Source: Corythucha ciliata (Eukaryota > Arthropoda > Insecta > Hemiptera > Tingidae). Taken from it: a DNA stretch of 64,000 nucleotides. A program made the position numbers and the translations under genes. Below are positions 4,971 to 50,350 of the stretch, one piece after another. The stretch lies in contig CM075938.1 of assembly GCA_038030265.1 (NCBI GenBank), positions 5,061,009-5,125,008 of the forward strand, in the 5' to 3' direction. The notes below the pieces were generated by a model. That model was not told where the DNA came from. It searched no databases and saw only the letters and a list, made by a program, of their open reading frames with translations. Positions within the stretch are counted from its first letter, which is position 1. Every line of letters starts with the position of its first letter.

Positions 4971-5234
4971 CTGCAATGAGAAAAGGATACTTTATGAGAT
5001 TTCCACTAGTGAGTAGGCTATTCTTTATCGGAGACAATTGTATATGATCGAGAATTGGGATGCACCGAACAATTAGCCATAACTTCAGATAAGGAATTCA
5101 CCATATTTAATAGGAAAAGAAACATAAATATACGAGAATCTTCATGATTCGAAGCAAGGGAGTAGTAGATTGCCCTCACAAAGAGGCTATGACATAGCCG
5201 TAGGTGAGAGGTGAGAGCAGCGCATACTCATGTA

Positions 5235-9960: not shown

Positions 9961-9976
9961 GAGCCATAAATTAACT

Positions 9977-12421: not shown

Positions 12422-12562
12422 AAGGCCCGGTTCACAAGCACTATGTTTACGTTCTGTGGAGTCTATGCAGCCAAACAAAGTTACTCCCTCAAAAAATGAA
12501 TCATTTTTATAGGTTGCATAGACACCACATAACACAAACATAGAGCTTGTGAACAGGGCCTA
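12422..12562. mobile_element. TA-flanked MITE nested in the hAT-like element
   Basis: Termini GGCCCGGTTCACAAGC and GCTTGTGAACAGGGCC are inverted repeats, and the match continues through ACTATGTTTACGTT and GTCTATGCA. TA lies outside each end. About 140 bp, non-coding. Confidence 0.8.
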
Positions 12563-18700: not shown

Positions 18701-21700
18701 CAAATAAGAAAAAAGTGCTATTCCCGGCTAAAAATTGAGGAAAACGCTAATTTGTGGCTAAAATTGAGAAAATTCGCGAATTCTCAGGCTAGAAACGCTT
18801 CTACGCAGCTAAAATTGAAATAAAGCGCTAATTCGCGTCTAAAATTGAGGTAAAAATTTGCGAATAAAGTGTGTTAAAATTTCTAATTCTGCCATCTCGC
18901 CTTCTGAGGACAACTTTGTGGGTGAAATTGAGAAAGACGGCAAATTCGTGGCTTTGAGTAAAAAAAAAAAAAACACTGATTCACGGCTAGAACTGAGAAG
19001 AAGCGCTAATCCGTAGATAAAATTTAAAAGAAATTGCTAATGTGTGGGAAAATGGAAAACTACCCGCTAATATTGAGAAAATCAGTAATTATTCTGGCTA
19101 AAATTAAGAAAAAGGTTAATTTTCAGCCTGAATTGCAAAAAAAGTGCTAATACGCTGCCAAAATATAAAACAAATTGCCAATTTGCTCTTAAAATATCGA
19201 AAAACGCCAATTCATGGTTACAATGAACAAAATTCGCTAATTCGCGGTTTAGAAACGCTACTGCCCTGCTAAAATTACGAAAAAACGTTAAATCCGCGGC
19301 TGAAATGTAGGAAAACCACTAATTCACGGCTAAAATTGAGAAAATTTTCAATTTTCGCCAAAAATTGCAAAATACGGTAATTAGCGGCTTCCTCGGCCAA
19401 CTTTGAGGCTGAGAAAAAGCGCCAATGTTCGGTTGTGGGTGAAAAACCTTCAAATTCGCGGCTAAAACTGAGAAAAAATCGGTAATCCGTAGCGTATGGT
19501 TATGGTGAACAAAAAAATGCTAACTTATCGTAAACATTTGGAAAAAACCGCTATTTTGCGGCTAATATTGAGTAAAACGCTAATTTTCAGCTCAAAATGA
19601 GTAATGTGCTAATTTCTTGGTTCCTGCTAGAAAAAATCGCTAATTTGCAGCTAAAACTGTGGAAAACGTTAATTCAAGGAAAGTTAAGAAACATGTCTGG
19701 CTCACGGGATAAAAAAAGCTACTTTGCTGCTAAAGTTGAGAAAAAGCGCGGGGGAGGATCACCCAGCTAATTTGCGTTTAATAGCGGCGAATAGCGCTAA
19801 TTTGCTGGTAAAGTTGACAAAAAGCACTCATTCGCGGTTAAAATGGAGAAATTCGCGGCTTAAACTTGTCATAAGCGCTGTTTGGCGGATAGGTTGTGGA
19901 AATAGCGGTAATTTGCATAAAATAAGGAAAAGGCATTGGTTAAAATTAGGAAAAAGCCTTAGAGGTGTTTGTGCATAAAATTAGAGGGCTTTTAGGGGCC
20001 TCTTGAAGATTTCCGCCCACCGGGCCCCGAGGTCCTCCAGTGGTAGTATGATCGAAAGACCATCATGTTCAGAGGGCTACCGGTTTTCTCGACCATTGGA
20101 CTAAAAGTTGAAGCCACTAATAACTTGCCTTCAGAAACCGTTAATTGGCGTTTTCGGGTCATTTCAGGTACGAATTAGCGCTTTTTCTCAAAACCATTGG
20201 GGAATTATCGATTTTCCGCCATTTTAGCAGGGAATTACTGATTTTTCCACTCTTGATCCGCACTTTTTCTCAATTTTAGCAGCGAAATAACGTTTTACCT
20301 CGCGAATTAGGCAATCAGCTAAGTATATTTCTTAATTTTAGTCGTGATTTAGCGATTTTTCACACTTGAAATCCGTGAGTCGAAGATTTGTCCTAATTTA
20401 TGCTGTGAATTATATAGCCATTTATCTCATTTTCAGTCCCAAATTAGCGGTATTCTCAATTTTGGCCTAGAAGTTACATCGGCAAACCTTGAATTTGTGC
20501 TTTTTCCCAATTCGATGCACGAATATTAGCGTTTTCCAAACTTTTAGCCTTTTATACTTGCCCCTAGAACAGCGCATTAGTGCGCCCTCTCAATTTTAGT
20601 CGCCTAAGGGCCTACAAAAAGGTGCGCATTAGTACTTTTCGCTTGACTTTTGAAGAAAGTGGTTATTTGCACAACGGCAATCTCTTGACGAAAGAAAAAC
20701 TTTAATCTTAGCGTGGTATTTCTTACCACCCTCCCCCACCATCCAAACTGAACGGAAAGTCAATTTGCCGCAAATTATTATATAAATCCACGAAATTTGG
20801 GGTTTTAAGGAACCCATTCCGCGAAATTGGCTATTTGAATAAGCCCTGCCCCACAAAATTGCCTTTTTATTGGGTCAAAAGTGCGAAATTTCGTGTTTGA
20901 TGTTGCGAAATTTGCTTTTTTGGAGGTTAGCAAGCCCCGAGAAATTCTTTTTAATGAGACCGGACGCGCTTGGGTTTTTAGATGGGCCCAAACTCGCAAA
21001 ATTGTTTTTTGGTTGAGTCCAACTGGTAAAATTGGTATCAAATGGACCAACCCTGCGAAATGTTGTTATTGAAAAGAGCCAGACTCGTGAAATTGCTCTT
21101 TAAAATGAGCCTGGAAATTTCACCCGAAACGCCGTGAAATTGACTTTTTGTGTGTTGGCAACTACGTGCAATTGTTTTCTGACGTGCCAGATCGGCAAAA
21201 TTTGGCTTTAGAAAAAGCCAAACCGGCACATTGTTGTTTTTTTTAAGTCGCAAAAAGTGAAATTAGGTTATTGTATTTGTCACACCGCGAAATTTGGGTT
21301 CTTTAGGCGTCAAATCCGTGAAATTTGGACATTAAAAGTGCCTAACTGGCGGAATATTGACTTTTCAAATGAGTCCACCCCTCGAAATTGACTTTTTAGG
21401 GAGACGATCCTATGAAATTGGCTTTTTATAGTAGTATGGATAGTAAATTTGTAGCCGAGCTCCCCCTAGCCCGGCCGGGGCCTCTAGGTGTCTGCCTAGG
21501 CATAAATCCGGGCCTCAGTCCGTGTGTATTTTCAGGGCGCACGAATCCGTTATATTTAGTCGGATTCTGCGGAAAAGTAGTTTTCAGTTGGGCTACGAAC
21601 TCAGTTTAGCCATTATCAAGGAGCGAATAGTTAATTTAACCATTTTATGGACGAAAATTGACAGTTCCGTCGTTTGTAAGGTGCGAGTCGTCAGTTTGTC

Positions 21701-24700
21701 ATTTCGTCAGTTTGTCAGGTAATTTTTACAAGGAGTAAACATTAGCCATGGCGATATTTTCAGGGCAAGAAGCCATGCTATTTCAGGTCCGAATGGTCAG
21801 TTTTGTCGTTTTTAGGGGAATTGCCAGTTTGGCCATTTTTACTGCTGGCCTTTCCTTTGTTTAGCCAATTTTGTTACGCGCGAATGATCCGTTTTGACCA
21901 TTTTCAGGGCAGGACACATCTGTTTAGGCATTTTTCATGTAGCAAATAGTGGTCACGTGGGACGTGAATGGTCAGTATTAGTCATTTTTGCCGTGCGAAT
22001 GGCCAGTTTGGCTATTTTCAGCGCGCGAATGGACGATTTAGTCATTTTCAGAGTTGTAAGCATCGTCAGCTTAGCCATTTTTAGAGCGGGAATTTACAGT
22101 TTGGCAAATTTTAGGGCGCAAATATAGTTAGTTCAGCCCTTTGCAAGGCACTAATCGACTAATCGTCAGTTTTGCCACTTTGGGGCGCGATTACAGTCAG
22201 TTCAACCGTTTTTAAGGTGGGAACAGTCGTTTGGTATGAAATCTTGTCAAAAACGACGATTTTCCCCCTTACTCCCAGTGTAATGCGGCAATTTCGTATT
22301 AGGATAATATAATGTGCTAGGAGCTTGGCTTTCGTCAAAAATTATTTCGTTTACGAGCTCCATGCCTCCTTGTAAATTCTATTCTCCTGGTCGTTAGGGA
22401 CGAAATCTTGTCAAAAACCACTATTTTGCCCCTTTCTCCCAGTGTAATGCGGCAATTTTCTATCTTTCGTATTAGGAGAGTATAATGTTCTAGGAGCTCG
22501 GCTTCCGTCGAAAATTATTTCTCCGATGATCTCCTCGCACATTCTATTCTCCTGGTCGTTGGGGACTGAATTTGGTCAAAAATGACAGTTTTTGCCCCCA
22601 TTTTTACCCCTGTAAGTGCGGTGATTTCCAATCTTTCGTATTAGGAAAATATAATGTTTTAGGAGCTCGGCTTCCGTCCAAAATGATTTCTTCGATGATC
22701 TCCTCGCACATTCTATTCTCCTGGTCGTTGGGGACTGAATTTGGTAAAAAAACGACAGTTTTTGCTCCTTTTTACAAGTGTAATGCGGCGATTTCCTATC
22801 TTTCGTATTAGGAGAATATAATAATCTAGGAGCTCGGCTTCCGTCCAAAATTATTTCTCCGATGATCTCCTCGCACATTCTATTCTCCTGGTCGTTGAGG
22901 ACTGAATTTGGTCAAAAATGACAGTTTTTGCCCCTTTTTACCCGTGTAAGTGCGGTGATTTCCAATCTTTCGTATTAGGAGAATATAGTGTTTTACGAGC
23001 TTGGCTTCCGTCCAAAATTATTTCTTCGATGATCTCCTCGCACATTCTATTCTCCTGGTCGTTGGGGACTGAATTTGGTCAAAAATGACAGTTTTTGCCC
23101 CTTTTTACCCGTGTAAGTGCGGCGATTTCCTATCTTTCGTAAAAAAATTTTATTGGTTTTGTCCTCAAGCTCCATGCAAATTCTATTCTCCTGGTCGTTG
23201 GGGACGAAATTTTGTCAAAAACAACGCATTTTACCCCTTTCTCCCATCGTGGCCAAACAGCTATTTCTGAGGGTTACATTATTAATTTATTAAGGACGAA
23301 AATTGCGTATTGTTTTTTATATCATGCCTTTGTTATGAGAATCATTTATTATTTAGCTCTAATTTGATTTTTCAAATCAAGGGAAAATTGCCGTTGACTG
23401 GGATCACTGTAACGAAATTGGAAGACAATGAAAACTACAAAAATGCATTCGAAATTACCGGTAAGATGACGTAAAATCGACGCATTTCGCTTTTAAATTC
23501 ACCACTTTACTTTCGCATTCATTTCTTTCTGGAAAGGACCGTTGATTGAGCGGATTATTGCCGTCTGTCAAACCAAAGAAGATCAACACAAGTGGGTTGA
23601 ATTGATCACCCAGCATTGCCGCATGATTGGATCGAAAACTTCCTCGTTAGAGAGAGTGAATTTTGATTCATTTGCATTATTTATTTTTATTTTACGATTC
23701 CGTTTGTTAAGACTTTAATGATTTTTTCGAACAGAAATCAAAAAACATAGAAATCGATCCCAATTACGAGGGTCCTTGGTCAATCAGCCGCCTGAGACCG
23801 TCAGCACCGTCGAGAAGTTACTTTCTGAAAACTGACAAACCCTCCGTTAAAGGTAACTCTCAACATTTCATTTTCTCCGCTTTGGTTTCATTTCATTTTG
23901 TTTGTTCGTGATTAGCTCAGCACAGTTTCGAAGAAGACGCACAAATACTCAGAGTTATCGAGTCCTATTGCACTAGTACAAACGCCAGATATACGTTAAA
24001 CTCAGGTCAGTTAAAACTGTCTTTTTTACATGTTGCATGAAGCATGTTCAGTGGAGAATTAACAGCCGCTTTATCTCAATAGAGTTTAGATATAATTCTG
24101 TACATAGTGTGAGCTTTACTTTACGTTTGATTTAAATTATTCGTTAATTTTTTCGTTATATTTTATTTGAATTGTCGCAACGTCGGGCAGTATTTTATCC
24201 TGCTATTGACAAAAAGTTATTATTTGTAGCCTTAGAAACCCAGAGGGATTGCTTTCGAAATAAAATTAAAGCGTGCTCAACGACGTTGTCGTTGCCTCTT
24301 GCAACATGCATTAATGGTAAAGAAGATCTTCGCTGATTTTGACCGTGTAAAATCGAAACGAGAGGCAAGTGAATGATTCGAGAATGACTCCTCTTTTTTT
24401 TCTTTGTAGCGCAAAAACCGAGCATGTTTCCCGATAGCTAATTTGCAATTTTAGATAGCATGAGTGAAATTGTTGTACAGATTTCGCTGAAGAAAGCATT
24501 TATCTTTGAGAGGACAGAAAATCTCTCGAATTATTTGCTTTTTTTTTTTTTTATTGTATAAGTGTAGAAAGATTTCGACTATTTTTAAGTTACTACTGGC
24601 GTGTGTGTGTGTGTGTGCATTGAATTTACAGTAACTTTACCTTCCTCAAGAATGAGACATCATAAACCACGCACAGGAATTCTCTCATGGCTCGTCGATT

Positions 24701-27329: not shown

Positions 27330-28175
27330 TCAAAGAGTATCTCCGACCGGTAACGGAATTAACCGATGTAGCGGTCGAATTAGCGTCGTAGTCGGCGTTT
27401 TAATTTTGGCTACCCGAGCCACCCCGTCAGGTCCTGGATAAGTCTCCAGTGTCCGCGCGATCGTCCATTGTTGCGGAGGAGAGGCTTTGTCTTGTAGTAC
27501 GACAATCGCTCCGATCGGTAACGAAGGGGTTGAGGTCCACCATTTTGACCTAGGCAGGAGGGTTTGAAGGTACTCCAAGTGCCAGCGTTTCCAAAAGTGT
27601 CGGACGCACGCGGAGAGCATTTCCCAACGAGTGTTCATAGGGAACGACAGGGCTTCCCCATCTGGACGAGCGAGTAGAGGTTGACCTATGAGGAAATGAC
27701 CCGGAGTGAGGTAATCACAGTTGTCATTCGGATCCGGAGAAATGCTGCACAGAGGTCTCGAGTTTAAAATAGCTTCGATCCTGGAGAGTAAAGACGAAAA
27801 TTCTTCGAATGTCAAGGCATGATTCCCAACGACGCGGACTAGATGGTGCTTGGCAGACTTAACCACAGCTTCCCACAAACCTCCAAAATGTGGCGATGCT
27901 GGAGGAATGAAATGCCACTGGATATCGCGCGCGGACAAGTGGTCCGAAATGGCATCCTGATGTTGTGACAGAAAGTCGTAAACGTCCTTGAGACGGCGAG
28001 CTGCCCCGACGAAGTTTGTCCCACGATCACTATGAAGAACCCTAGGAAGACCCCGGCGGGAAATAAACCGATCTAGAGAGGCGAGGAATGCAGATGTCGA
28101 CAGCTCCGTTACTAATTCAAGATGCACCGCCTTGGTAGCAGTACATACGAAGAAACAAATCCAGCATTTGTACAA
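27330..28175 (-). pseudogene. BEL/Pao integrase and C-terminal part
   Basis: The open frame carries TKAVHLELVTELS, the integrase block HSDRGTNFVGA with the second catalytic Asp, GLWEAVVKSAKHHL with the catalytic Glu, and LTPGHFLIGQPL, all hallmarks of Pao-type integrases. The C-terminal basic domain ends at a TAA-type stop at 27330. The first catalytic Asp lies in the preceding open frame (GVD at its end): a stop and a one-base frame change split the integrase at about 28175-28220. Part of the same element as the next three entries. Confidence 0.9.
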
Positions 28176-28219
28176 GCGTGAAGTTCGACGTTTCGAATCT
28201 TTGTAAAGAAAGGGACCAC

Positions 28220-28972
28220 CTAGTCAACGCCAACTTCAAGAAAAGCACGGGCCTGTGTTACCCGCATCGAGGGGAGCGGTGCCATCAAGGGTGTTTGAGG
28301 CTTAACTTTGAATTTGTAACACTGGACGCATTGGAAGGTCCTATTTCGGATTAACTGTCGGGATGAAACGATCCAGAAACGACGCTGTATGAGACTCTGA
28401 ACTAATTGAATTCCTCCATGAAGAGTATACGCGTGGAAATGATCGACTAACAAGACTGCGAGATGAGACTTCTTCGGAATTAAAATTGGATGTTTTGAAT
28501 TGAAAGGCAATGTAGAATTAGTTGGGCGACCTCCTACACGAATGAGGCCATCCTCCGAGATGAACGGATTCAAACGTTTGAAAGAACCGAAGTCCTGACG
28601 ATCGTTGTGTAAAGATTCCAGTAAGACAGAAAATTTGTCGGCCTGAAGGATTTTGATGTAGGCCACTAAAGCTTTATTGATCTCAGAAGTCTGAAGATGT
28701 CCTGATGACCGTGGCTCCGAAGACGGACTTTTCGAAATTCGATTTTTTAGTCGATTAACGAATCGGAGAACCCATGCCATTATCCGGTTAAGTCTAATGT
28801 ACGACGAAAATTTATCGCACTGCTCGAGCAGGTCGTTGTGGCAATTTTGAGTTGCTAGAGAAATTGTCTTTCGTTCAAGAACGCCTGAAGTAGGTTCCAA
28901 ATTCTGGATAGGCCAATCTGAAACCGGTAACTTGAGAAAATCCGGTCCATTCAAGTAGAGCGAATGTTCCAA
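28220..28972 (-). pseudogene. BEL/Pao linker and integrase N-terminal region
   Basis: The segment contains the region between RNase H and integrase: PDFLKLPVSDWP, RVGGRPTNSTLPFNSKHP and a His/Cys zinc-binding-like region (DHFHAYTLHGG, FQCVQCYKFK). An in-frame TGA at about 29036-29038 separates it from the RNase H frame to its right, although the protein text between the two (TSSNPADCVSRGL) is still readable. Confidence 0.88.
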
Positions 28973-29038
28973 AAATTGCGAGGGCGTGAGACCTCGAGAA
29001 ACACAATCAGCCGGATTAGAACTAGTGGGGATGTAACT

Positions 29039-29755
29039 TCACCAAGAAGGTTCGGTGATTTCCAGGATTTGGACCACCCGATTTGCGACGAAAGTCTTTA
29101 GAAGATACGGAGGAGTTTGAAGCCACCACAGAACATTTTTTGAATCGGAGAAACAAATAATTTTGTTGACGCCGCTTTTTTCAATGAATGGCTGCAGAGT
29201 ACGAACAACTTTGGCGGTGAGGAGAGCAGCACAAAGCTCGAGGCGAGGAATACTAATAGTTTTCAACGGAGCCACTTTACTTTTTGCCTTTAAAAGGTGA
29301 ACGAATCTCTGTCCTTGTGCAGTCTCCACTAGAAAATAAACGACACAGCCAAACCCTTTCTCAGACGCGTCCGAAAACGCCGCCAACATACACGAAGAAT
29401 TGTCCGTATAGGACAGAAAACGAGGAAGTGAGAACTCTTGTAGTTGCGGAAGATCTTCCAGAAATTTAGCCCACTCATTCCGGAGTGGAGGAGGCAGCGG
29501 ATCATCCCAGCCCAATTTATGTAACCAAAGACGTTGCAGAAGCGATTTGATCCAAAATGTAACAGGACTTAAGTATCCATTTATGTCGAAAATTCGAGCA
29601 ACGACCGATAAAACAGCTCGTTTGGTGAAACCTGACTGAGAAGTGTCGATTACGTAGCTAAGGCGATCTGATTTCGGATTCCACTGGACCCCTAATATCT
29701 TAAAGGACGACGAAGAATCGAAGGATAACGGTGTGACCCCGAATAAAGATAAAAT
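29039..29755 (-). pseudogene. BEL/Pao RT C-terminus and RNase H
   Basis: Begins within the RT connection (FKILGVQWNPKSDRLSY) and continues through VARIFDINGYLSPVTFWIK into RNase H: LAAFSDASEKGFGCVVY with the catalytic Asp, RLELCAALLTAKV with Glu, and CFSDSKNVLWWLQ with Asp. It is separated from the rest of the RT by the foreign insertion at about 29762-30870. Confidence 0.88.
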
Positions 29756-29761
29756 AAGCAA

Positions 29762-30870
29762 ATTGTACCTTTTGTACCTCCATACGAGTTTTATAATTTT
29801 TGTAATTAGGATTTAGTAATAATAATTGTGTGACAAGATAAAATACCCTTTTGTACCTCCATACGCGTTTCTATAATTTTTGTAATTAGAATTTAGTTTT
29901 TATTTGTCTCTCTCTCCTTGATCCTCCCCAACGTCCGGCGCCTGCGCCCCGTCCCATACCCTTTCTCCCAACTTCCCCCTCTTAAAGAAAAGCGACGGCA
30001 GACCGGGCTCAGGCAAGAGAAGAGAGAAGGGAACGGTAGTAGAGGCAGAAAGAGGGCCATCGTCGGCAAGTCAGTCAAGAGAGAATCGTTGCCTCCGCGG
30101 CAGTTTCCAGCGCGGTACGTCAAAAGTTCACGTTACGTCAGCACAGTATTGCCTCCACGGCCCGTCAAAGGTTATCGTTACGTCAGTGCTGCGTAGCCCC
30201 GCGGCCCGTCGAAAGTTTACGTTAAACAGTCAGTTGAGCACGGCCTCCGCGGCCCATTCGCATCAGTGTGGTGACACCTCGTCGTCGAGGCTTTTCGTGG
30301 TTAAGCCTCCCCGTCTTTACGTCTACTAGTCTTCACGTCACTCGCTTCACGTCAACTCGTCTTCATATCGATTCGTACTCTCGTCGACTCGTCTTCACGT
30401 TGACTCGTCTTCACGTCAACCGCCTTCACGTCAACTCGTCTTCATATCGATTCGTACTCTCGTCGACTCGTCTTCACGTTGACTCGTCTTCTCGTCCACC
30501 GTCTTCACGTCAACCGCTTTCCCGTCTTCGCCTCCCGTCACCCCGTCTCGGCTCGTTGGCACGTTTCCGACAAACGACATCACGGCCTGTTGACCCGGCG
30601 CCCTCTACACGTCGACCCGGCGTGAGTACTTGATGCGAACAGTTACCCCCCCCTCTTCTTTTTTGTCTTTAAACCCTCCCTTCCCGCTGAGTTTCCGTCC
30701 TCATCCCCGATAGTTTTCTAAGTTCTTTTAATATATTTATAGGAATAAATTTTGCGTTTCAATTTTTCGATTTATTTATTTTTCCCCAGTTTTCCTCCTC
30801 TCGCTTAACGTACCCCGAGTCAAAAGAGAGTAAAACGGAGCAGAGGGTACTAATGTACCACAACGGATTG
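29762..30870. mobile_element. Unidentified 1.1-kb insertion inside the BEL/Pao RT region
   Basis: The BEL coding text stops at about 30870 and resumes at about 29755. The intervening sequence has no long meaningful frame. The pentamer ATTGT lies at both edges (29762-29766 and 30867-30871), a possible target duplication. The edges carry TTGTACC and GGTACTAATGTACCACAA, faintly LTR-like. Inside are a roughly 105-bp duplication (GTACCTCCATACG at about 29777 and 29857), GGCCCGTC/TTACGTCAG repeats, and a 79-bp repeat (CTTCATATCGATTCG at 30361 and 30440). A solo LTR or non-autonomous element are both possible. Confidence 0.6.
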
Positions 30871-32909
30871 TCCCGTTGAACTTCCGAAATGGTACTTAAG
30901 ACGGTAGAGTCATTGCTGGCGAACTTGTGGAGCTTGAATCCTCCAAGAGAAAAGAGTTCGTTGAGTTCCTCGCAGAGCTGAATAGCACTCTCGGTTGTAA
31001 AGGCTCCCGAGACAATGTTGTCGACATAAATATCGCCGCTGCACCGCGATGCGTTAGGAAACTGAGCACTGTAAAGAGCGAAGAGTTCGATAAGCACTCG
31101 TTGAGCCAAAAACGGAGAACTTTTCAATCCGAAAGGTAACGTGGTCAGCTCGTATTCTTCTATGGGCAGGGAGGAGTCAAACCGCCAGAGGAAATGAACG
31201 AATTTCCTGTCCTCGGAAGAAAGCCGAATTGAGCGAAACATTTGCTTGATGTCACACGAGATTGCGACCGGAAATAATCGAAAGTTATCAATGATCTGAC
31301 CGATATTTGACTGAAGCGGTTTTCCTGGCAATAATAAATCATTTAGAGAATTAAAACCAGTAGTGTGCTCAGAACCATTGAATACGATTCGCAGTGAAGT
31401 AGTCGAGTTAGGTTTTGCTACCCCGTGATGAGTCATCAAATAGTCACCATGGCTGTTGGTCAGAGATACGTGATCTGCATCAATGTAGCTCTGCATTTGT
31501 GCACCATACAGTGATCGGTAATTGGAATCCCTTGAAAATCTTCTCTCAAGAGTGTGTAAGCGATTTAACGCCGACGTCCGAGTCGAATGAAGTTGTAACG
31601 GAACGTCCGTTCGAAATGGTAAGGACACCATGAAGCGACCCTGATCGTCACGTTGAACATGATCCTGAAAGTGTTTCTCGCAATAACTGTAAGTAGGATC
31701 TTCTGGAATTTGAACTTCGACTTCTTCAGTTTCCCAGAAGCGCTTGAGCTCCTTATTAATAAGGTCTACGGAAAGAAAGGTTTGCACCTCTTCAGATGTT
31801 TCTTCAGTGTCCGTTTCCCCGAAAATGATCCAACCCAGTGCGGAGAGAATCGCTGACGGTCGACCCTTAATGAAGAGAGGTGGATCGCTCAGAATTTCGG
31901 CGTAGAACTGGGCGCCAACGAGTAAGTCGATAGGTCCTGGAGTACTGAAGTCTGGATCAGCTAATGAAAGTGTAGAGAAGCGCTGACCTATCTCGCGAGA
32001 AACAGGCGTCGAAGGTACCGAGGAAACTATGGTAGGCAAAACCCGGGCTGAAAGTGAGAAAGTTGTAGCAGAATTGCTAACCGAACGAAGAGTGCACGAG
32101 ACTTCGTGCTGAGAAGTAGGCAACCGCGTGTTACCAACACCAGAAACCGTGGACGTGATCAGACGTCTGGGTAAATTCAACCGATTTGCGATCTTGTGAG
32201 TAATAAAATTAGATTGCGATCCAGAGTCAATGAGTAAGCGGCAAGTTATCCAGTCACCGGAAGATGATCGAATTTTTGCCCGAGCGGTGCTCAAAAGAAC
32301 GTGAGGATTAGAGTTTACCCGCGCCGCAAGAGAATGTGCGCCTGAGTTTTCGGATGGTGCACCAGAGGTAGGAGCTGAAGGGCTAGAAGGCGAAGGATGA
32401 GCGGACGTAGAGTCCAACGGTGCACGAACGGGAGAGATCGGGCTGCTACTAGAGCCCTCCTGTGATGAGTGTAGTAGTGTGTTGTGTTTCGTGCTACTAC
32501 AAACACGACAAGCTCCGCGACTCGCGCATTCGGAAGCGCTGTGGGCTCCTCCACAGGAAAAACAACGTTTGAACTTCTTGAGCAGTTCGTAACGGCCACT
32601 TACGTTGGACTTGAGAAACGTGGAGCACTGAAGAATTCTATGAGATTTTCTGCAAATCGGACGGACACCTACTGATTTAATGGAAGAAGACGGCGAACTT
32701 GTGCGGGTTTGGACGTTGAACGTCTTGGTAGAAGACGTGGAAGTTTTTCCTCCTTTGTGAGGGTTATCAGAACACAAATCTGCTACTCGGATTTGAGTCT
32801 TTATGAAGTCACACAACTCGGTGAATTTGGGGAATTCACTGTCTGTATACTTGGATTCGAAAAGTTTGCGTGTTTTGTGATCGATAACACGAAGACTGAG
32901 GTGAACCAT
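30870..32909 (-). pseudogene. BEL/Pao gag C-terminus, protease and RT
   Basis: One long open frame holds, in order: the end of gag with CCHC-type knuckles (CFSCGGAHSASEC, CRVCSSTKH), a retropepsin-like aspartic protease (LLIDSGSQSNF), then RT with DIKQMFRSIRL and LPFGLKSSPF. The RT catalytic box reads YVDN instead of YVDD, so the second catalytic Asp is replaced. The N-terminal half of gag and the 5' LTR are absent: the frame runs directly into minisatellite at 32910. The reading after about 30870 belongs to the insertion. Confidence 0.9.
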
Positions 32910-32919
32910 GAAATATCAA

Positions 32920-35900
32920 ATAGCGGCTTTTAGCGGTAGCAGAAAAGCGTTGGCTCATCGTAGAAAACGAAAATACATCACTAATTCGTGGCTGAAAATG
33001 AAAACAAATCACCTGGCTCAACAATTAATTTTTGAAAACGCAAAATTCGTGGTTTTCTCGAGGCAACAACAGAAAAAAAGCGCAATTGAAAAAAAAAAAC
33101 GCTAATTCACGGCTAAAATTGAGAAAGCCACGTAATTCGCGGCTGAAACTGAGAAAATCTACTAATTCCGGCCTAAAATTTAAGTAAAACGCTCATTCAC
33201 AACTAAAATGAAGAAATAAGAAAGAGAAAATTGGCTAAAATTGAGGAAACGCGGTAATTCGTGGCTAAAATTGAGAAATACTTTGCGACTAAAAAATGAG
33301 AAAAAGCGCTTAGATCGCGGTAAAAATTGAGAAAAAAGCTAATTCACGGATACAAGTGATAGAAAAGCCGCTTATTCACGGCTAAAACTGAGACAAACCG
33401 CTAATTGCCGTCTAAAATGTAGAGGAAGAGCTCATTCGCTGTTAAAGATTCAGTGAATTCGCGGCTAAAGTGGGCAAGAAGCGCTTATTCGCCGCTGAAA
33501 CGGAGAAAAACGACGAATCGCGGATCAATTTGAGAAAATCCACTAATTCGCGGCTAAAATTGAGGAAATGCGGTGATTCGCGTCTGAAATGAAGAAAAAA
33601 ATGCGCGGCTAAAATTGAGAAAAGGCACTTAGATCGCGGCAAAAAGTGGAGAAAACCGCTAATTCATTGTTAGATTTGAGAAAAAGCCAATTATTGGTTC
33701 GTATAGAGGCACGTTTGCGGCTGGTAATCAAGAAAAAAAAGAGAGATTCATGGTAGAATCCCTCCCAAGTTAAAATCCTAGATCCGCCACTGGAATCAAT
33801 GGTGTTCTAGAAGCATAAAAATGTGTCGTACAAGCGCGGCTAAAATTAGGAAAACGCTAATCCGCAGCTAGATACAGGAAAAAGCGATAAATTACAAAAC
33901 AAATTGTGATAAACTATGATTCGCAGACAAAATTTTGAAAAATCTCTAGACAATAGGGGCTAAAATTGCACAGGAAAAGCGTTGTTTCGCGGCTAAAATC
34001 AAGACAACTTTTACCCGCGACTAGATTCAGGAAAAACCGCTCATTTACATAACAAATTGAGATAAACTATAATTTGTGGCTGAAATGTACAGAAGTCGCG
34101 TCTACAATTGCGTATAAAAAGCGTTAATTCGCGGCTAAAATCTGGAAAACGTCAATCCGCGGCTAGAATCGGAAAAAAGCGCCGCTAATTTCCAGAATAA
34201 ATTGTGACAAACTGCACTTCGCGGCTGGAATTTGGAAAAATCGCTACATAATAGCGGCTAACATGAGGGGAAAACGCTAATTTTGCAGTTAAAATGGATA
34301 AAAATCAATAATTCACTAATGAAATTGTTAAAAAAGCGTTAATTCGACGGATATAGCGTCGTAAAAGCGCGGCTAAAATGAGGAAAACGCTAATCCGCAG
34401 CTAGATTCCGGAAAAAAGCGATAATTGACAAAACAAATTGTGATAAAATGTGATTCGCGGCAGAAATTTAGAAAAATCTCTCGACATTAGGGGCTAAAAT
34501 TTCACGGGAAAAGCGCTGATTCGCAACTAAAATTAGGAAAACGTTTACCCGCGGCTAGATTAAGGAAAAACCGCTCATTTACAAAACAAATTGAGATAAA
34601 CTGTAATTCGCGGCTGAAATGTACAAAACTCGCGTCTAAAATTGCGTATAAAAAGCGTTAATTCGCGGCTAAAATCAGAAAAACGTCAATCCGCGGCTGG
34701 AATCGGAAAAAAGCGCCGCTAATTTCAAGAATAAATTGTGATAAACTGTAATTCGCGGCTGGAATTTAGAAAAATCGCTACATGATAGCGGCTAACACGA
34801 GGGAAAAACGCTAACTTGCAGTTAAAATGTATAAAAATCAATAATTCACTAATGAAATTGTTAAAAAAGCGTTCATTCGACGGATATAGCGTCGTGAAAG
34901 CGCGGCTAAAATCATGAAAACGCTAATGCGCAACTAGATTCAGGAAAATAGCGTTAATTATTACAAAAAGAATTGTGATAAACTGTGATTCGCGGCGGAA
35001 ATTTGGAAAAATCTCTTGACAATAGGGGCTAGATTAAATATTTAATTCGTGGCTAATTTTGGCAGAAAGCGCTTATTAGCAGCTAAAATGGAGAAATATG
35101 CTACGTCTCGGCACAAGCAAGCGCTAATGTGAAGCTAAATTTCAAAGATACATTTGGTAATTCCGCTTGTTCACGGCTAAAACTGATACAAACGCTAATT
35201 CCCGGCTAAAATTGGGACATTGCGTTGATTCACGGCCAATATAACAAAAGACGCTCGTTCGCGGAGCTCAAATGGAGATAAACGCAAATTCACGGATTTT
35301 GTGAAAATCCTCCAGTTCAAAGCTGAAATTGAGTAAAAGCGGTGATTCAGGCGTGAAATTAAGGAATAATTCACGCGGTTAAAATTCGGAAATAATGCTC
35401 AGCTAAAACGAAGAAAACAAAAAGCTAATTCTCTGCTAGAACTGAGGGAACGAGCTAACTTGCGGCTAAAATGGTGATTAGCGCTAATTCGCATGACTAA
35501 GAAGTGAAGAAAAACGCTAAAATTAGAGGAATAAAACGTTAACTCGTGGCTAAAACTGAGGCAATTGCCGTCTAAAATGTAGTGGAAGAGCTCATTCGCT
35601 GTTAAAGATTCAGTGAATTCACGGCTAAAGTGGGCAAGAAGCGCTTATTCGCCGCTGAAACGGAGAAAAACGATAAATCGCGAATCAGTTTGAGATAACC
35701 CAGTAATTTCACGGCTAAAATTGAGGAAATGCGGTGATTCGCGTCTGAAAATGAAGAAAAAAATTCGCAGCTAAAATTGAGAAAAAGCAACTTAGATCGC
35801 GGCAAAAATTTGGGAAAACCCGCTAATTCATGGTTAAATTTGAGAAAAAGCCAATTATTGGTTCGTACAGAGTCATGTTTGCGGTTGAAACTCAGTAAAA

Positions 35901-36754: not shown

Positions 36755-36910
36755 TCCTGGTAACGGGTATAGGCAGCGTGTCGGCCTTGACCAGCTGGCA
36801 AAGGCCGCAGGGCTTGCACGCGTCAGGTCACTTCCCGGAAGTCCTGACTGGTCTATCCTGGCAATGTGCCCTGCGGGGCATCAGATCAGGGCGAGAAGAA
36901 GGCACACACC
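36755..36910 (+). mobile_element. Orphan 3' end of an R1-like LINE
   Basis: This segment aligns on the + strand with the 3' UTR of the LINE at 46811-49254 read on its sense strand. Shared blocks are CCTTGACCAGCTGG, CTTGCACGYGTCRGGTCACT followed by TCCCGG, TATCCTGG..ATGTGCC and GGGCGRGAAGAAGGCACA. The end of the match is the same point at which the other copy meets its repeat array, so it is the true 3' end. No coding sequence precedes it, only minisatellite. Confidence 0.78.
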
Positions 36911-36924
36911 TGAGGTACCGCGCT

Positions 36925-42808: not shown

Positions 42809-43788
42809 GTGCTTTCGGATATGACTTTTTTTCAGAAAAGTTGGCGCATTGTATCACCATGTTTAGAGGTCGAGAGACAACGAATCGAGATGGAGGAAAT
42901 GCGTAGGAAGAAGGAAGAGGAAAGGGCTAGGCGGGTGGTTAGCGATAGGCGAGAGGGGAAGGGAAGAGGTGGGGGCGGTATCGCAAACTCAAGCCGGGCC
43001 AGAAACGGTGAGCCAGGCGAAGAGAGCGTAAGTGCCCATACAAGCGCGGGTCGCGATCAGGAAGGTGGATGAGGCGCCGTTTGAAGTGGACGAGGCGTTG
43101 GAGCTGAGAGACTTTGCCATGGAGGCGATGTTGGACAGTGAATGTGGGGTAAGCCGATTTATGGATTCGGGGCTAGTGGAGGATAGCAAGATTTACTTGT
43201 TTACCTGTGGGGGACGTTGGGTCGGTGAGGAGATTTGTAGGGTGCCTAAAAGAACCAAGCAGGCAGAGGGGGTTGAATGTATGCCTACTGAGTGACATAC
43301 CGACGCCGACTAGGATTAGGGGCGTTGTCACGGGTATGAGGCAGGCAAAAGAGAAAGTATTGAGGTTCATGAAACTGGTTAACCAGGATCTGGGCCTCGA
43401 CATAGGGTCGTGGCAGTTAGTAGGATTTCGTAGAGACCCTCAACTAAGCTGACGATCGAGGTGCCCGATAAGGACGCGGAGATTGTTAGGAAGGTGGGCC
43501 ATTTGGGGGTGGAGTTTACGAGGGTAAGGTTTTGGATGCTTTCCAAGAGAAGGTGGGGGGAGGATGATGAATCGCTAGTGGGGGGAAACAATGAACCCCA
43601 CGACACGGCTATGGAGATTGAGGGCGATGCGATCCCTCCAAAGGATCAGGCAGGGCCCAGTGGGGTGGTTCCGCCGTTGGAGGGGGAGGTTGGACATGAC
43701 GGCCAACTCAATCCTGCGGTCCTGATGGTCACCGACTTGGAGAGGTCCCTGATAAAACAACAGGGGCCACAGGGAAAGTAGGTAGAGG
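42809..43788 (+). pseudogene. LINE ORF1 (DUF4780-like) with frameshifts
   Basis: Coding text moves through three frames (42809-43072, 43032-43295, 43207-43452, then 43461-43781). It starts with a charged coiled region (EMRRKKEEERARRVV). Then comes a domain with IYLFTCGGRWVGEE, VVTGMRQAKEKVLRFMK, and VPDKDAEIVRKVGHLG followed by VEFTRVRFWML. The last part resembles DUF4780, found in ORF1-type proteins of arthropod LINEs; this match is from memory. There are no CCHC knuckles. At least two indels break the frame. Confidence 0.65.
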
Positions 43789-43826
43789 GCCGTGATGGCG
43801 CGAGGGGAACGGAGAGAAAGTAGGAT

Positions 43827-44021
43827 ATGAAGGTGCTTCAGGCTAATTTGCAGCACAGCAGAACTGCGACGGCGGATGTTGCTGTGCTGGAGGCTGGTTT
43901 GGAGTTCCAGGTGGGGTTGTTTCAGGAACCATATCTCTTTAAGGGGAGGGTGCGAGGGCTCCGGAATCGGAACTATGAGGTTATTCACGCAACGGAGGGA
44001 CTGGAAAGGGTGAGGGCATGT
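43827..44021 (+). CDS. LINE ORF2 N-terminus, AP-like endonuclease (runs into gap)
   Basis: Starts ATG KVLQANLQHSRTATADV and continues GLFQEPYLFKGRVRG, the first two motifs of the R1-clade apurinic-like endonuclease (Asn in LQxNLxxS, Glu in QEP). The frame is open up to the assembly gap at 44022. Its reverse transcriptase would lie in the gap. It is on the opposite strand to the RT on the other side, so the two are not one element as assembled. Confidence 0.8.
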
Positions 44022-44521
44022 NNNNNNNNNNNNNNNNNNNNNNNNNNNNNNNNNNNNNNNNNNNNNNNNNNNNNNNNNNNNNNNNNNNNNNNNNNNNNNN
44101 NNNNNNNNNNNNNNNNNNNNNNNNNNNNNNNNNNNNNNNNNNNNNNNNNNNNNNNNNNNNNNNNNNNNNNNNNNNNNNNNNNNNNNNNNNNNNNNNNNNN
44201 NNNNNNNNNNNNNNNNNNNNNNNNNNNNNNNNNNNNNNNNNNNNNNNNNNNNNNNNNNNNNNNNNNNNNNNNNNNNNNNNNNNNNNNNNNNNNNNNNNNN
44301 NNNNNNNNNNNNNNNNNNNNNNNNNNNNNNNNNNNNNNNNNNNNNNNNNNNNNNNNNNNNNNNNNNNNNNNNNNNNNNNNNNNNNNNNNNNNNNNNNNNN
44401 NNNNNNNNNNNNNNNNNNNNNNNNNNNNNNNNNNNNNNNNNNNNNNNNNNNNNNNNNNNNNNNNNNNNNNNNNNNNNNNNNNNNNNNNNNNNNNNNNNNN
44501 NNNNNNNNNNNNNNNNNNNNN
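44022..44521. other. Assembly gap, 500 N
   Basis: Exactly 500 undefined bases, a typical placeholder rather than a measured size. Confidence 0.99.
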
Positions 44522-45780
44522 GACATTGAGGGCTGTCTCGGCGGCGGTGGAAGTAGAGCTTTCCGTTAAATGATCCATGACCCGATAGCAGTTGGACAGC
44601 GGGATAACTGAGAAAGCTCCACTTCCACCTGAGGCGTTCCGCGATGTTGGGGACGATGGCGTGTGTGTGGCGCCCTGTTGGCGCAGTGTCCCATTCAAGT
44701 TGCCACTGGGATATTGCGGCATCGCGGCATGCAGAGGCAAAGGCGCTGTGGTCCAAGTCCGAAGGGATGGGGGCCAGCCATGGTGGTGAAGGCTGGTCGA
44801 TTCCCAGTAAGCGCGCGCGTGTTGCCGCCCGAATGTCTAGCTCCAAGTCCAGGGGTAGCACCCCAGCGAGGACGTGCAGAGAGAGGTGCGCGGTGGTGGA
44901 GTATGCGCGGAGAGTCGCCAGTAGAAACCTCCTCTGGATGGTCCTCGCTGCTCGACGGTCGGCGGGGCGAGCGTGTGGCCACCAGACGGCGCACGCGTAT
45001 GAGACTTTTGGCAGGAATACTGCCTTATAGTACCGGAGGCGCTTCTGGAAGGTTGGCCCCCATCCCTTGCCCGAAATTCCACGTAGGAAGTCACAGCTTG
45101 CCTGGATCGTTCTCGCCAGGAACGCCAGGTGCTGCGTTGGTAGGCCCGATCTCATGATGGTAACCCCCAGGTACCGCATAGGGTGGACGAGCGGCATGAT
45201 GTGTCCATGCGATGTTCTAAGGTGCCGTTGGGTCGGGAACAGTTGCGTTCCGCGAAGGATCGTCAGCGTGGATTTGCCGTAATTTACCTGGAGTCGACGG
45301 GTCTGGCAGTAGGTCGCGACGATGGAGTCCACGCGGCGGAACTCTTGGCGGAACGTGTGGTGATCCCTAGCCGAGATGACAATGGCCAAATCGTCCACAA
45401 AGGCGGTAGCCGCCAGGCCCTTGGTCTCCAGCTCGCGCAGGAGTGGTGCAAATCCAAGGGCCCAGAGGAGGCACGATGGTACTGTGCCCTGGGGGCACCC
45501 GCTCGAAAGGCTTATGCTCGATGTAGTGCCAGCGTAGTTCAATCGGGCGGAGCGATCGCTGAGGTAGCTGCGGAGGAGCCCGTATATGTTGCGCGGTACG
45601 CCAGCGTTCTTGATCTCCAGGAGGAGCGCTGGCCACCAGACGGCATTGAACGCACCGACGATGTCATAGCAGGCTACCCCAGCAATGCGTTCGGTCGATG
45701 CTGCGAGTTGTTCTTGCAGGTTGACAATGGCGTGTTCCGTCGATCTTCCTGGGATGCCGCCGAATTGCCATCGATGAACC
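44522..45780 (-). pseudogene. R1-like LINE copy A: RT fragment, truncated at both ends
   Basis: The frame begins at the boundary with the 10-bp array (45780) inside the RT domain at HRWQFGGIPGRSTEHA. It runs through YDIVGAFNAVWWPALL, LSSGCPQGTVPSCLLWALG, the catalytic FVDDLAIVI, and the thumb and C-terminal region as far as FHRRRDSPQC at the gap. No stops are seen. The true start is not here: the first residues of the open frame come from translating the array. It is similar to, but clearly diverged from, copy B, so they are different subfamilies and not a recent duplication. The C-terminus and 3' UTR are lost in the gap. Confidence 0.88.
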
Positions 45781-46810
45781 ACACCTAACCACACCTAACC
45801 ACACCTAACCACACCTAACCACACCTAACCACACCTAACCACACCTAACCACACCTAACCACACCTAACCACACCTAACCACACCTAACCACACCTAACC
45901 ACACCTAACCACACCTAACCACACCTAACCACACCTAACCACACCTAACCACACCTAACCACACCTAACCACACCTAACCACACCTAACCACACCTAACC
46001 ACACCTAACCACACCTAACCACACCTAACCACACCTAACCACACCTAACCACACCTAACCACACCTAACCACACCTAACCACACCTAACCACACCTAACC
46101 ACACCTAACCACACCTAACCACACCTAACCACACCTAACCACACCTAACCACACCTAACCACACCTAACCACACCTAACCACACCTAACCACACCTAACC
46201 ACACCTAACCACACCTAACCACACCTAACCACACCTAACCACACCTAACCACACCTAACCACACCTAACCACACCTAACCACACCTAACCACACCTAACC
46301 ACACCTAACCACACCTAACCACACCTAACCACACCTAACCACACCTAACCACACCTAACCACACCTAACCACACCTAACCACACCTAACCACACCTAACC
46401 ACACCTAACCACACCTAACCACACCTAACCACACCTAACCACACCTAACCACACCTAACCACACCTAACCACACCTAACCACACCTAACCACACCTAACC
46501 ACACCTAACCACACCTAACCACACCTAACCACACCTAACCACACCTAACCACACCTAACCACACCTAACCACACCTAACCACACCTAACCACACCTAACC
46601 ACACCTAACCACACCTAACCACACCTAACCACACCTAACCACACCTAACCACACCTAACCACACCTAACCACACCTAACCACACCTAACCACACCTAACC
46701 ACACCTAACCACACCTAACCACACCTAACCACACCTAACCACACCTAACCACACCTAACCACACCTAACCACACCTAACCACACCTAACCACACCTAACC
46801 ACACCTAACC
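45777..46810. repeat. Perfect 10-bp array (TTAGGTGTGG on the minus strand), 103 units
   Basis: From 45781 to 46810 the + strand is ACACCTAACC repeated 103 times without a visible error. On the minus strand the unit is TTAGGTGTGG, the insect telomere core TTAGG plus TGTGG. The array joins the 5' truncation of LINE copy A on the left and the 3' end of copy B on the right. Perfect homogeneity over 1 kb indicates recent synthesis or active homogenisation; a collapsed or over-extended assembly is also possible. Confidence 0.97.
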
Positions 46811-49254
46811 AGGATTGTGCCTTCTTCCCGCCCTGGCTTGATGCCTTGAAAGGCACATAACCAGGATAAAGCCTGACATGACGGCCGGGAAGTGACCCGA
46901 CACGTGCAAGTCCTGGTTATCCTCGCTCCACTCCCCGTCAGCCACACCAGCTGGTCAAGGCTGGTGCGTTACCGGTGTGGACCGCTTGGCGGTGGGGAGT
47001 TTTACAGGTGGTAAAGTAGGGGCGAGGAGAGATACCCGTTCGATGATCGTTGGTTGCTACCGGTGAGCTGTTTCTTGTTGTGCGTGATGGTGATCGTTGT
47101 TGGGGGTGTTGGTTCGCGGTTGTTTAATCGTTGGTATTCTGGGTATCTGGTGGTGATTGAGTTTGGCCGATGTTCGGGCCTGTTCCTCTGCGACTGCACC
47201 ATGCGTTGGCGAAGCAGAGGAAGCGGCGAGCCGAGGTTTTACTAGCGACGAGAGTGCTGAGGTCGCTGGGGATTTGCCAACGAATTCGCTGAAGACGGTA
47301 TAACGGACAGCGGAGAATTACATGCTCCGCTGTCTCGACCTCGCCCCCGCATGGGCAGTCAGGGCTGTCTCTACGGCGGTGGAAATGGAGCTTCTCGTTG
47401 AAGGATCCGTGGCCTGAGAGGAGTTGCACGGTAGGGTAACTCAGGAAGCACCACTTCCAGCGCAAACGCTCCTGTACATCAGGAATGATAGCGAAGGTGT
47501 GGCGTCCCGTTGCTGCTGTTGACCATTCGCGTTGCCATTCCTGGATGGCGGCACGATAACAGTCTTTCTTGTAGTCCGCCTCCGGAAGTGTCGTAGGAAT
47601 GAGGTCAAGCCAAGGCGGCCTAGGCTGGTCCGTTTGAAGGGCTCGCGCGCGGATGGCCGTGCGGACGTCAAGCTCCAGATCTAGGGGGAGGACACCCGCA
47701 AGTACATGGAGGGTCAGATGCGCTGTGGTCGTGTACGCTCGAAGAGTGGCCAGTAGGAAACGGCGTTGTATGGTGCGCACTAGTCGCCGGTCAGCTGGCC
47801 GAGCTGAGGGCCACCAGACGGCACATGCATATGAAATTTTCGGGACGAAAACCGCCCTGTAGTAGTGTAGGCGCTTCAAGAAGTTCGGCCCCCATCCCTT
47901 GCCCGAGATGCTTCGGAGGAAGTCGCAGCTGCTTTGAATTGTACGCGCAAGGTAAGACAAATGCTGCGTGGGCAGACCTGACCTCATGATGACGACACCT
48001 AGGTACCGGAAAGGGTGAATGATCGGCATGGTTGGGCCGTGCTCCGTTCGTATGTGCCGCTGGTTTGGGAAAAGTTGAACTCCTCTAAAGATCGTGAGTG
48101 ACGATTTGGCGTAGCTGATATGAAGGCGACGGGAGGTACACCAAGCCTCAATTAGTGCGTCAACACGCCGGAATTCCTGTCGGAATGTGTGATGGTCGTG
48201 CGCGGTTATCACCACAGCCAAGTCGTCAACGAAGGCAGTTGCCAGTAGGCCTGCCGTCTCGAGCTCGTTCAAGAGTGGAGCAAAGCCCAAGGCCCACAGT
48301 AGGCATGCTGGTACGGCCCCTTGGGGGCAGCCGCTGGAGAGTTCGCGTTTTACCGTGATGCCATTGTCGGTCAGTTGTACTTGGCGGTCACTGAGGTAGC
48401 TGCGTAATAGGGCATATATATTGGCTGGGACCCTGGCGGTTTTAATGTCGTGCAGGAGGGCTGGCCACCATACAGCGTTGAAGGCTCCAACGATGTCGTA
48501 GCATGCGACTGCTGTGATGCGGCGGTTGGTGGAGGCAGCAATTTGCTCACGTAGGTTTAGGATCGCATGCTCTGTGGAGCGTGTAGGAATCCCTCCGAAC
48601 TGCCATCGATGGCAGGCCTCATATATTTCCGGAGTGAGACGGTTAACCAGGAGTCGCTCGAGTATTTTACCTTCGATGGAGATGAGGGAGATGGGTCGGT
48701 AGCTCGAGGGTTCACTACGGTCGCGATCCGGATCTTTTAGAAGCAGACTGATGTTACTGGTTTTCCAGGGAGTCGGAAAGTATCCACTGTGGAGGCATTT
48801 GTTGTAGATGTTGGTGAGGGTCTCTATGGCAGTTTGGGGAAGGTGGCGCAGCATGTGACCCTCTATTCTGGATGGACCAGGGGCTTTCTTCAGCGGGACA
48901 TTGGCAAGGACCGCTGTGACCTCGTCCGTCGTCCAAGGTGGAGCGTTGGGTGTTGTTGGTGGGGTTGCGATGTCTTCCCGGATTCGACTATCCAGGGCCG
49001 TATCCCGTGAGGGGTCGTCCGCAGGGAAGAGCGCCTCAAGGAGAGCACGAAGCGTGGTGTGTACATCCCGGGTGCTGGCTACAGCCGCTAGTAGAGATTT
49101 TGGCCCGAATTTACCGCGGTGGAGGTTGTAGGGGAGGCTCCACGGGTTGGCAGCCAGCTCCTCGGTGACAAAGCCCCTCCACGCTCGGCGCTTCTCCCTG
49201 CGGACAAGTTTTTTGAAGGCGCGACGTTGGGTTGTGTAGGCCAGGTGGGCTGAA
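46811..49254 (-). mobile_element. R1-like LINE copy B: 5'-truncated ORF2 and 3' UTR inside the array
   Basis: ORF2 is open from the array boundary (about 49254) to a stop at 47124, some 709 codons, with no internal stop. Text: a pre-RT region (KKLVRREKRRAWRGF), RT from SYRPISLISIEGKILERLL through GGIPTRSTEHA, YDIVGAFNAVWWPALL, SSGCPQGAVPACLLWALG and FVDDLAVVI, and a C-terminal finger CPCGGEVETAEHVILRC (C-x-C-x8-H-x4-C). The endonuclease is lost by 5' truncation. The 3' UTR, about 310 bp, ends at GGGAAGAAGGCACAATCCT, where the repeats start with no poly(A). The 3' UTR tail is shared with 36755-36910. The clade assignment to R1 (home of TRAS/SART) rests on motif style and target. Confidence 0.9.
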
Positions 49255-49630
49255 CCACACCTAACCACACCTAACCACACCTAACCACACCTAACCACAC
49301 CTAACCACACCTAACCACACCTAACCACACCTAACCACACCTAACCACACCTAACCACACCTAACCACACCTAACCACACCTAACCACACCTAACCACAC
49401 CTAACCACACCCTAACCACACCCTAACCACACCCTAACCACACCCTAACCACACCCTAACCACACCCTAACCACACCCTAACCACACCCTAACCACACCC
49501 TAACCACACCCTAACCACACCCTAACCACACCCTAACCACACCCTAACCACACCCTAACCACACCCTAACCACACCCTAACCACACCCTAACCACACCCT
49601 AACCACACCCTAACCACACCCTAACCACAC
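49255..49630. repeat. Telomere-like array switching from 10-mer to 11-mer
   Basis: About 16 units of the 10-mer CCACACCTAA (49255-49410) give way abruptly to about 20 units of the 11-mer CCACACCCTAA (49411-49629). On the minus strand these are TTAGGTGTGG and TTAGGGTGTGG. Both blocks are homogeneous. The array ends at CACCACAACGACTAG, where unique sequence begins. Confidence 0.97.
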
Positions 49631-50350
49631 CACAACGACTAGTCTGTAGGCAAAGTCCGAATAGGTATATAGTTTTTCTCGGTCGTTTTGTTCACGCTTC
49701 CAAGCAAAACACGATTTGACCCACACTTAACACTGCATCGCCCTGCTTGAACGCGTTGCTCAATGCTGCTGTCCTCGCCGATGAAATCGATGATACTGGC
49801 AAAAATGTCATGATGATGAAAATGAATGGTGAACACAGAAACACATTAGTTAAAAGAAGTTATGTACCAAGCCAATTCACAGTATTCCTAATGGATTACC
49901 TACCTAAATCTCCCTAAAATCCAACGGGAGATAATCTCTGACAAGTCAAGTAAGGATAGACACGAAGTCCCCTCATATGCAGATTACGATCTTCCTTGTT
50001 CCTCTAACTAAATAAATCACTATGCCTCGGCTCAGTGTCTGCCCAGCGAGGCGCTCTGTGCAACTTTACCAAACCCGACCACCTTCCACGGATGGCTTAC
50101 AGAAGTCGAGGTTAGCCATCCAAGGTCGTTGCTGACCTCAGAGTAAAAATCCGAAAAAGTTGAACTAGCTGATAACAAGTCGACCAACATTACAGTCGAC
50201 TTAGATCACAGTTGTCCCTGATTACGGTCGACCAGTGATAAGGTCGACCAACATTACGCACTCTTGCAATCCTATGCAAATCGTGATAAGGTAACCTTTG
50301 TGTAACCTATAACTACATAAATAAAGTTAGCCCCGATGTCCGGAACTCTT
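49631..50350. other. No gene recognised
   Basis: Unique-looking sequence. Around 50180-50270, GGTCGACCA and AGTCGACT palindromes recur. No open frame with recognisable features. Confidence 0.4.

Follow-up and report, generated by a model that had tools for sequence, protein, structure and literature searches.

In this work, a 64-kb stretch of the genome of the sycamore lace bug Corythucha ciliata (C2:5061009-5125008, hereafter the window, in whose coordinates array positions are given) was analyzed. It carries two neighboring tandem arrays of a TTAGG-related decamer, TTAGGTGTGG, and of its 11-bp variant, TTAGGGTGTGG, as well as two 5'-truncated retrotransposons (elements A and B), an assembly gap and several ordinary genes (Table 1). 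Considered together with a census of the whole assembly, the window suggests that the chromosomes of this lace bug very probably end in TTAGGTGTGG, a new spelling of the ten-letter telomere repeats of true bugs.

Arrays and retrotransposons of the window

Tandem Repeats Finder (TRF) recognized (AACCACACCT)n of period 10 at 45777-46811 (103.5 copies, 100% match) as array 1, and delimited array 2 at 49253-49631. By exact counting, the window contains 118 copies of CCACACCTAA (103 in array 1 and 15 in array 2) and 20 copies of CCACACCCTAA; no copy of either was found outside the two arrays or on the opposite strand in the whole window. The array counts of the first-pass annotation, made from the letters of the window, were right within one unit (reading in the frame AACCACACCT gives a 16th decamer); the reverse transcriptase element between the arrays and the gap of 500 unspecified bases (N) beyond the larger array were missed there. 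As the TTAGG-reading (G-rich) strand of both arrays is the minus strand, the distal direction is that of lower window coordinates, and a chromosome end, if there is one, should be expected on that side. The 500-N gap is located 1.26 kb beyond array 1 in this distal direction.

Table 1. Coordinates of the arrays, retrotransposons, gap and genes within the window (LTR, long terminal repeat; LINE, long interspersed nuclear element; ORF, open reading frame).
Feature	Position	Strand	Description
Array 1 (distal)	45777..46811	-	103 perfect TTAGGTGTGG units, C-strand on the plus strand; TRF and exact counts
Array 2, distal part	49253..49404	-	15 full TTAGGTGTGG units (16 with the partial one)
Array 2, proximal part	49405..49631	-	20 TTAGGGTGTGG 11-mer units
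Element A	46812..49252	-	5'-truncated non-LTR retrotransposon with 3' untranslated region, without poly(A), between arrays 1 and 2
Element A, open frame	47124..49262	-	712 amino acids; RVT_1, Pfam PF00078, E=1.1e-28
Element B	44522..45776	-	second 5'-truncated element, distal to array 1; cut by the assembly gap
Assembly gap	44022-44521	.	500 N; distal side of the array-bearing contig
Different LINE beyond the gap	43437..44021	+	5' part: end of ORF1, start of endonuclease-like ORF2
Remnant of an element A relative	36808..36912	+	3' end, 79-80% identity; isolated, no adjoining array
SNW1/SKIP	3077-5005	-	Pfam; part of the stretch
JAB/MPN-domain protein	622-1900	+	Pfam; part of the stretch
RhoGEF	16108-17092	+	Pfam; part of the stretch

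Element A is inserted with the layout TGGTT/element/TGGTTAGG (slashes mark junctions), and the first residues of its open frame are translated from array letters. Among 7998 scored candidates, 104 proteins were found to be related to it with E <= 0.001; the top relative (39% identity) is unnamed, and the best named ones belong to the mirid bug Nesidiocoris tenuis. Element B shows 68% nucleotide identity with element A, and a further copy, located at C3:10.39 Mb (scaffold and position), shows 88% identity with element A over 238 bases. The coding strand of all three lies on the TTAGG strand, as judged by the reverse transcriptase frames of elements A and B and by the 3' end of the C3:10.39 Mb copy.

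At the junctions seen, the elements sit in the arrays in one register. The 5' junctions are GGTGTGGTT/CAGCC in element A and GGTGTGGTT/CATCG in element B (2/2 in the window share the register), and the 3' junction of element A, CACAATCC/TGGTTAGG, is identical in the C3:10.39 Mb copy (2/2 of the 3' ends seen), both of them giving a 4-5 bp target duplication (TGGTT). A genome-wide junction search, which covered this one register only, yielded three matches on the 3' side, i.e., the two element ends and one variant unit in the C4 array, and six on the 5' side, i.e., elements A and B, the array exit at C5:55.42 Mb and three variant units.

At C5:55.42 Mb, a frameshifted, decayed reverse transcriptase fragment breaks off mid-domain at ...CCGTGTGG and 59 perfect 11-mers follow directly, so that this junction looks like repeat addition to a broken end, as in chromosome healing. 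Positions 1-800 of this stretch hold, by eye, a piece of a Gypsy-like reverse transcriptase, one TTAGGAGTGTGG unit and then the element fragment, which is cut on both sides and precedes the 59-unit array. A head-to-head join of two telomeres at the window gap was also considered and rejected, since the plus-strand fragment to the left of the gap matches other LINEs and not the closest relatives of element A.

As regards the remaining content of the window, a tree of the SNW1 fragment (118 of 121 rows, the rest being too gappy) placed the window sequence beside the pea aphid with a support of 0.949, which fits Hemiptera. A hymenopteran host was rejected: one SNW1 alignment column resembles that of the wasp Aphidius, but the tree and the assembly point to Hemiptera/Heteroptera. 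The open frames at 27330-32915 (minus strand) look like those of a BEL/Pao-like retroelement, a name based on the appearance of the sequence and not on a family search. TRF indicated two further tandem arrays, at 9954-10377 (period 54 bp) and 22292-23141 (period 167 bp), and a diverged 30-bp repeat family is present at 33094-33665, 12314-13177 and 17400-19750 (TRF consensus in one array: AAAAACCGCTAATTCACGGCTAAAACTGAG); related repeats also flank the C2:53.27 Mb arrays.

Distribution of the arrays in the assembly

The genome scan comprised 400,903,649 bases in 57 contigs, including seven large scaffolds of 399,925,974 bases with an N50 of 60,522,411. According to the paper describing the C. 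ciliata genome (PMC11993305), 399.93 Mb were placed on seven chromosomes with a scaffold N50 of 60.52 Mb, the final assembly amounts to 401.27 Mb, the number of contigs is 1085, and the work was based on PacBio continuous long reads (CLR), wtdbg2, Arrow, Pilon and 3D-DNA; the seven scaffolds agree with the karyotype cited there.

The 30-mer of three TTAGGTGTGG units was found 990 times (504 forward and 486 reverse matches) and its reversed-pattern control not once, hence the arrays are not a product of chance. In the same 400.9 Mb, there were no matches (0 + 0) to five TTAGG units, nor to three units of TTAGGGATGG or of TTAGGGGTGG, i.e., the two commonest decamers of true bugs, and the 30-mer was absent from both the viral and the prokaryote collection (0 and 0). 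The census, which leaves aside very short remnants as well as arrays consisting solely of 11- or 12-mers, gave in total 11 array ends at 10 gaps on six scaffolds, i.e., C2:5.11 (the window), C2:53.27 (two array ends), C2:55.54, C3:10.39, C3:51.19, C4:3.26, C5:6.17, C5:55.42, C6:5.67 and C7:46.84 Mb. The sites read account for all 486 reverse matches and for 48 of the 504 forward ones; the unread 4.5-kb middle of the 4.8-kb array at C3:10.39 Mb would fit about 453 of the other 456 if it is unbroken, which would leave about three forward matches unplaced.

Every array end (11/11) has an N gap no more than 1.3 kb away. Such a gap is present at all 10 sites, at nine of them with its 500 N in full, and at C2:55.54 Mb 355 N were seen before the stretch ended. 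Other stretches, which total 236,000 bases and form a non-random sample of scaffold ends, small contigs and flanks, contained no N run. Moreover, a contig ending in a telomere must point its G-strand to the gap, and thus the seven ends at which this is so (C2:5.11, C3:10.39, C3:51.19, C5:6.17, C5:55.42, C6:5.67 and C7:46.84 Mb) fit the orientation of chromosome ends.

The genome-wide counts, the gap sites and the absence of TTAGG arrays support the initial suggestion of a divergent TTAGG-related telomere repeat, and the motif, which occurs beside 10 gaps spread over six scaffolds, is not confined to one internal locus. A misjoined contig end, one of the explanations then offered for the internal position, is likely, given that all the array ends adjoin N gaps.

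Far from these main sites, very short remnants of 10/11-mer arrays were observed at C1:25.31, C4:18.18 and C4:2.92 Mb. Beside the C3 array, at C3:51.196 Mb (2096-3023 of the stretch), an open frame looks, by eye, like a parvovirus capsid phospholipase domain, and may be an endogenous viral remnant.

Unit length and its order along the arrays

The main variable part of the unit is a single G-run, i.e., TTAGG, TTAGGG or TTAGGGG followed by TGTGG, which yields, besides TTAGGTGTGG, the 11-mer TTAGGGTGTGG and the 12-mer TTAGGGGTGTGG. At all six gap-facing ends holding both lengths, 11- or 12-mers predominate proximally, and the distal part consists of 10-mers alone or nearly so at four of them and of a 10/11 mixture at two. 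From proximal to distal, the window contains 20 11-mers followed by 15 10-mers (together array 2) and then 103 10-mers; C3:51.19 Mb, 26 11-mers, a short mixture and then 19 and 89 10-mers, with one 10-mer at the very inner edge; C5:6.17 Mb, a block mainly of 11-mers and then 251 perfect 10-mers; C5:55.42 Mb, 59 11-mers and then seven 10-mers; C6, 45 11-mers and then nine 10-mers among 12 11-mers; and C7, 12-mers and then 21 10-mers among 27 11-mers. The sequence read at C5:6.17 Mb, C6 and C7 stops within the array, short of its innermost part. In the parts of C3:10.39 Mb that were read, there were only 10-mers, with a terminal TTAGGG at the gap.

It is possible, though doubtful, that the chromosome ends record a recent motif change, with an older inner block of 11/12-bp units and a younger 10-bp TTAGGTGTGG outside. 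The observed order could follow from a shift of one or two bases in the telomerase RNA template or in the register of its alignment: an alignment region ending in a C-run could give G-runs two to four long, and a shift of this kind would then be laid down from proximal to distal. However, switches run in both directions, which weakens a clean one-way change. Over all loci read, and counting a switch where two units stand on each side, the mixed zones contain 10 switches from 11- to 10-mers vs. nine from 10- to 11-mers (eight vs. four at gap-facing ends), the latter nine at C2:53.27 Mb (2), C4 (3), C6 (1) and C7 (3).

Alternatively, the differences between 10-, 11- and 12-mers could be consensus errors over a single real unit length, as the published assembly combines PacBio CLR reads with wtdbg2, Arrow and Pilon, and the main variants differ in one G-run only. 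We consider this rather unlikely, because there are long pure blocks of both lengths (59, 45 and 20 perfect 11-mers; 251 and 103 perfect 10-mers) and the block of longer units is the proximal one at 6/6 of the gap-facing ends that have both.

Telomere interpretation, its alternatives and known systems

We propose, with a probability of roughly 85%, that C. ciliata has TTAGGTGTGG, with its 11- and 12-bp variants, as its telomere repeat and that the arrays were displaced by scaffold joins. Telomerase would add TTAGGTGTGG to the 3' end of the G-strand, and retrotransposons with SART-like orientation insert into the resulting arrays, the junctions seen having a common register. Gap position and orientation suggest that Hi-C scaffolding linked telomere-ending contigs to other contigs across N gaps, which would account for arrays lying in the interior of scaffolds.

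Several results weigh against this interpretation. The motif was absent from all 14 ends of the large scaffolds (seven starts of 10 kb and seven ends of 3 kb); in 13 of the 50 smaller contigs, the first 10 kb lacked it as well. The seven gap-facing ends compare with 14 chromosome ends expected. At four of the 11 ends (both at C2:53.27, C2:55.54 and C4:3.26 Mb), the G-strand points away from the gap; the arrays there, short or else mixed and in part decayed, could represent interstitial copies or faults of the assembly. The low chance of gap proximity, about 0.7% per site, speaks for the interpretation but presupposes about 1,078 randomly placed gaps in 400.9 Mb, a number taken from the published 1085 contigs and not counted in the assembly. 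Likeness to known decamers can only support the interpretation, since 11.5% of letter-shuffled decamers lie within one base of any of nine published motifs.

The components of telomerase belong here too. The RNA template, which the first-pass annotation had proposed to look for in the same genome, was not recovered: a genome-wide search gave 30 hits for one presumed phase vs. 10 for the reversed control and no supported gene. Four of the 30 hits lie in known arrays, and among the other 26, examined in 24 stretches, four more lie in short array remnants. As no clear promoter box was shared by four U6 upstream regions, no telomerase RNA candidate is claimed. Rfam gave no match on the window at the gathering threshold. 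The search for the TERT domain (PF12009) was likewise without a match, and its control matched in none of its genomes, therefore the absence of TERT is not demonstrated.

The arrays could also be interstitial telomeric sequences left by real fusions or rearrangements, the living ends carrying the same or another sequence that is missing from the assembly. This would suit the scaffold-interior position of all located arrays, the motif-free scaffold ends and the four away-pointing, partly decayed arrays. It is nevertheless quite unlikely, because every array end adjoins an N join, so that no array is seen in continuous sequence with ordinary DNA on both sides, the longest homogeneous arrays (103, 251 and about 482 units) face the gap, and the seven scaffolds match the karyotype cited in the genome paper.

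Of the 3.9 kb spanned by the window arrays from outer edge to outer edge, element A takes up 2.4 kb, and this, together with the unmatched TERT domain, would be in line with a telomere whose upkeep depends mainly on telomere-specific retrotransposition and in which the short repeats are a relic target. We regard it as very unlikely: the TERT search carries the limit given above, both elements of the window are 5'-truncated, and recent synthesis or homogenization is implied by the long perfect arrays (251 units read, about 482 inferred). An ordinary satellite, telomere-like in its unit but without a function at chromosome ends, which the short tandem unit and high homogeneity might recall, is highly implausible in view of the near restriction of the arrays to contig ends (very short remnants aside), the TTAGG core and strand polarity, insertions sharing the orientation of a known telomere-specific family, and the absence from the genome of all other telomere motifs tested.

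A telomere repeat of the proposed kind would fill a place described as empty. In PMC9324616, which gives about 2,600 described species for Tingidae, the TTAGG signal in fluorescence in situ hybridization is reported as absent in all 32 lace bug species tested, C. ciliata appears in a figure whose legend gives these signals as absent, and the telomere of the lace bug subfamily studied is called "yet unknown". No report of TTAGGTGTGG as a telomere repeat was found in the PubMed Central literature, where supplementary tables, which may contain the motif, lay outside the search; among the matches listed, those to the motif string were mostly human LINE-1 assay primers, and the 11-mer string occurs once in a fungal telomere review (PMC8381367), inside one vestigial junction and not as a repeat unit. 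The location of the arrays inside scaffolds, at gaps in a published chromosome-level assembly, suggests why the motif could have escaped notice. With a concrete probe sequence, the proposed lace bug telomere can be tested directly.

Of known telomere-specific retrotransposons, SART1 of Bombyx, as described in PMC7265360, resembles the elements found here in being inserted in telomere repeats with its coding strand on the TTAGG strand, and its 5' junction, TT/AGG, matches both (2/2) element junctions in the window. Its 3' junction, in contrast, is poly(A)/AGG, whereas the elements of C. ciliata have no poly(A) and end in CACAATCC/TGGTTAGG with a short target duplication. For this reason, they are not assigned to the SART family and are SART-like in orientation only.

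Long hymenopteran motifs, such as TTAGGTTGGGG (PMC9841428; compare also Gokhman 2023, PMC10632776), are lengthened TTAGG-derived units of another insect order. This comparison, which the first-pass annotation had drawn, has to give way to that with the host's own suborder, and is kept as an analogy only.

The close parallels are the 10-bp motifs of Heteroptera, i.e., TTAGG-related units that replace TTAGG in true bugs. Those listed in PMC13421425, PMC12287714 and PMC11354137 are TTAGGGATGG, TTAGGGGTGG, TTAGGGTGGT and TTAGAGGTGG, together with Nepomorpha candidates including TGGATAGGTG; within Cimicomorpha, the list of PMC13421425 names decamers only for Cimicidae, Anthocoridae and Miridae. TTAGGTGTGG differs from TTAGGGGTGG by one substitution. 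Unlike the listed motifs, among which it does not occur, it is known here from assembly sequence alone, and its arrays hold many 11- and 12-bp G-run variants. If the interpretation proposed here is true, the debate over a single or a repeated origin of the true-bug decamers will have to include TTAGGTGTGG as one more of them. The Naucoroidea candidate TGGATAGGTG, i.e., ATAGGTGTGG (Nepomorpha, PMC13421425), agrees with it in 9/10 bases in register, including the TGTGG half, but begins with ATAGG instead of TTAGG and belongs to a different infraorder, and this likeness is likely a case of convergence.

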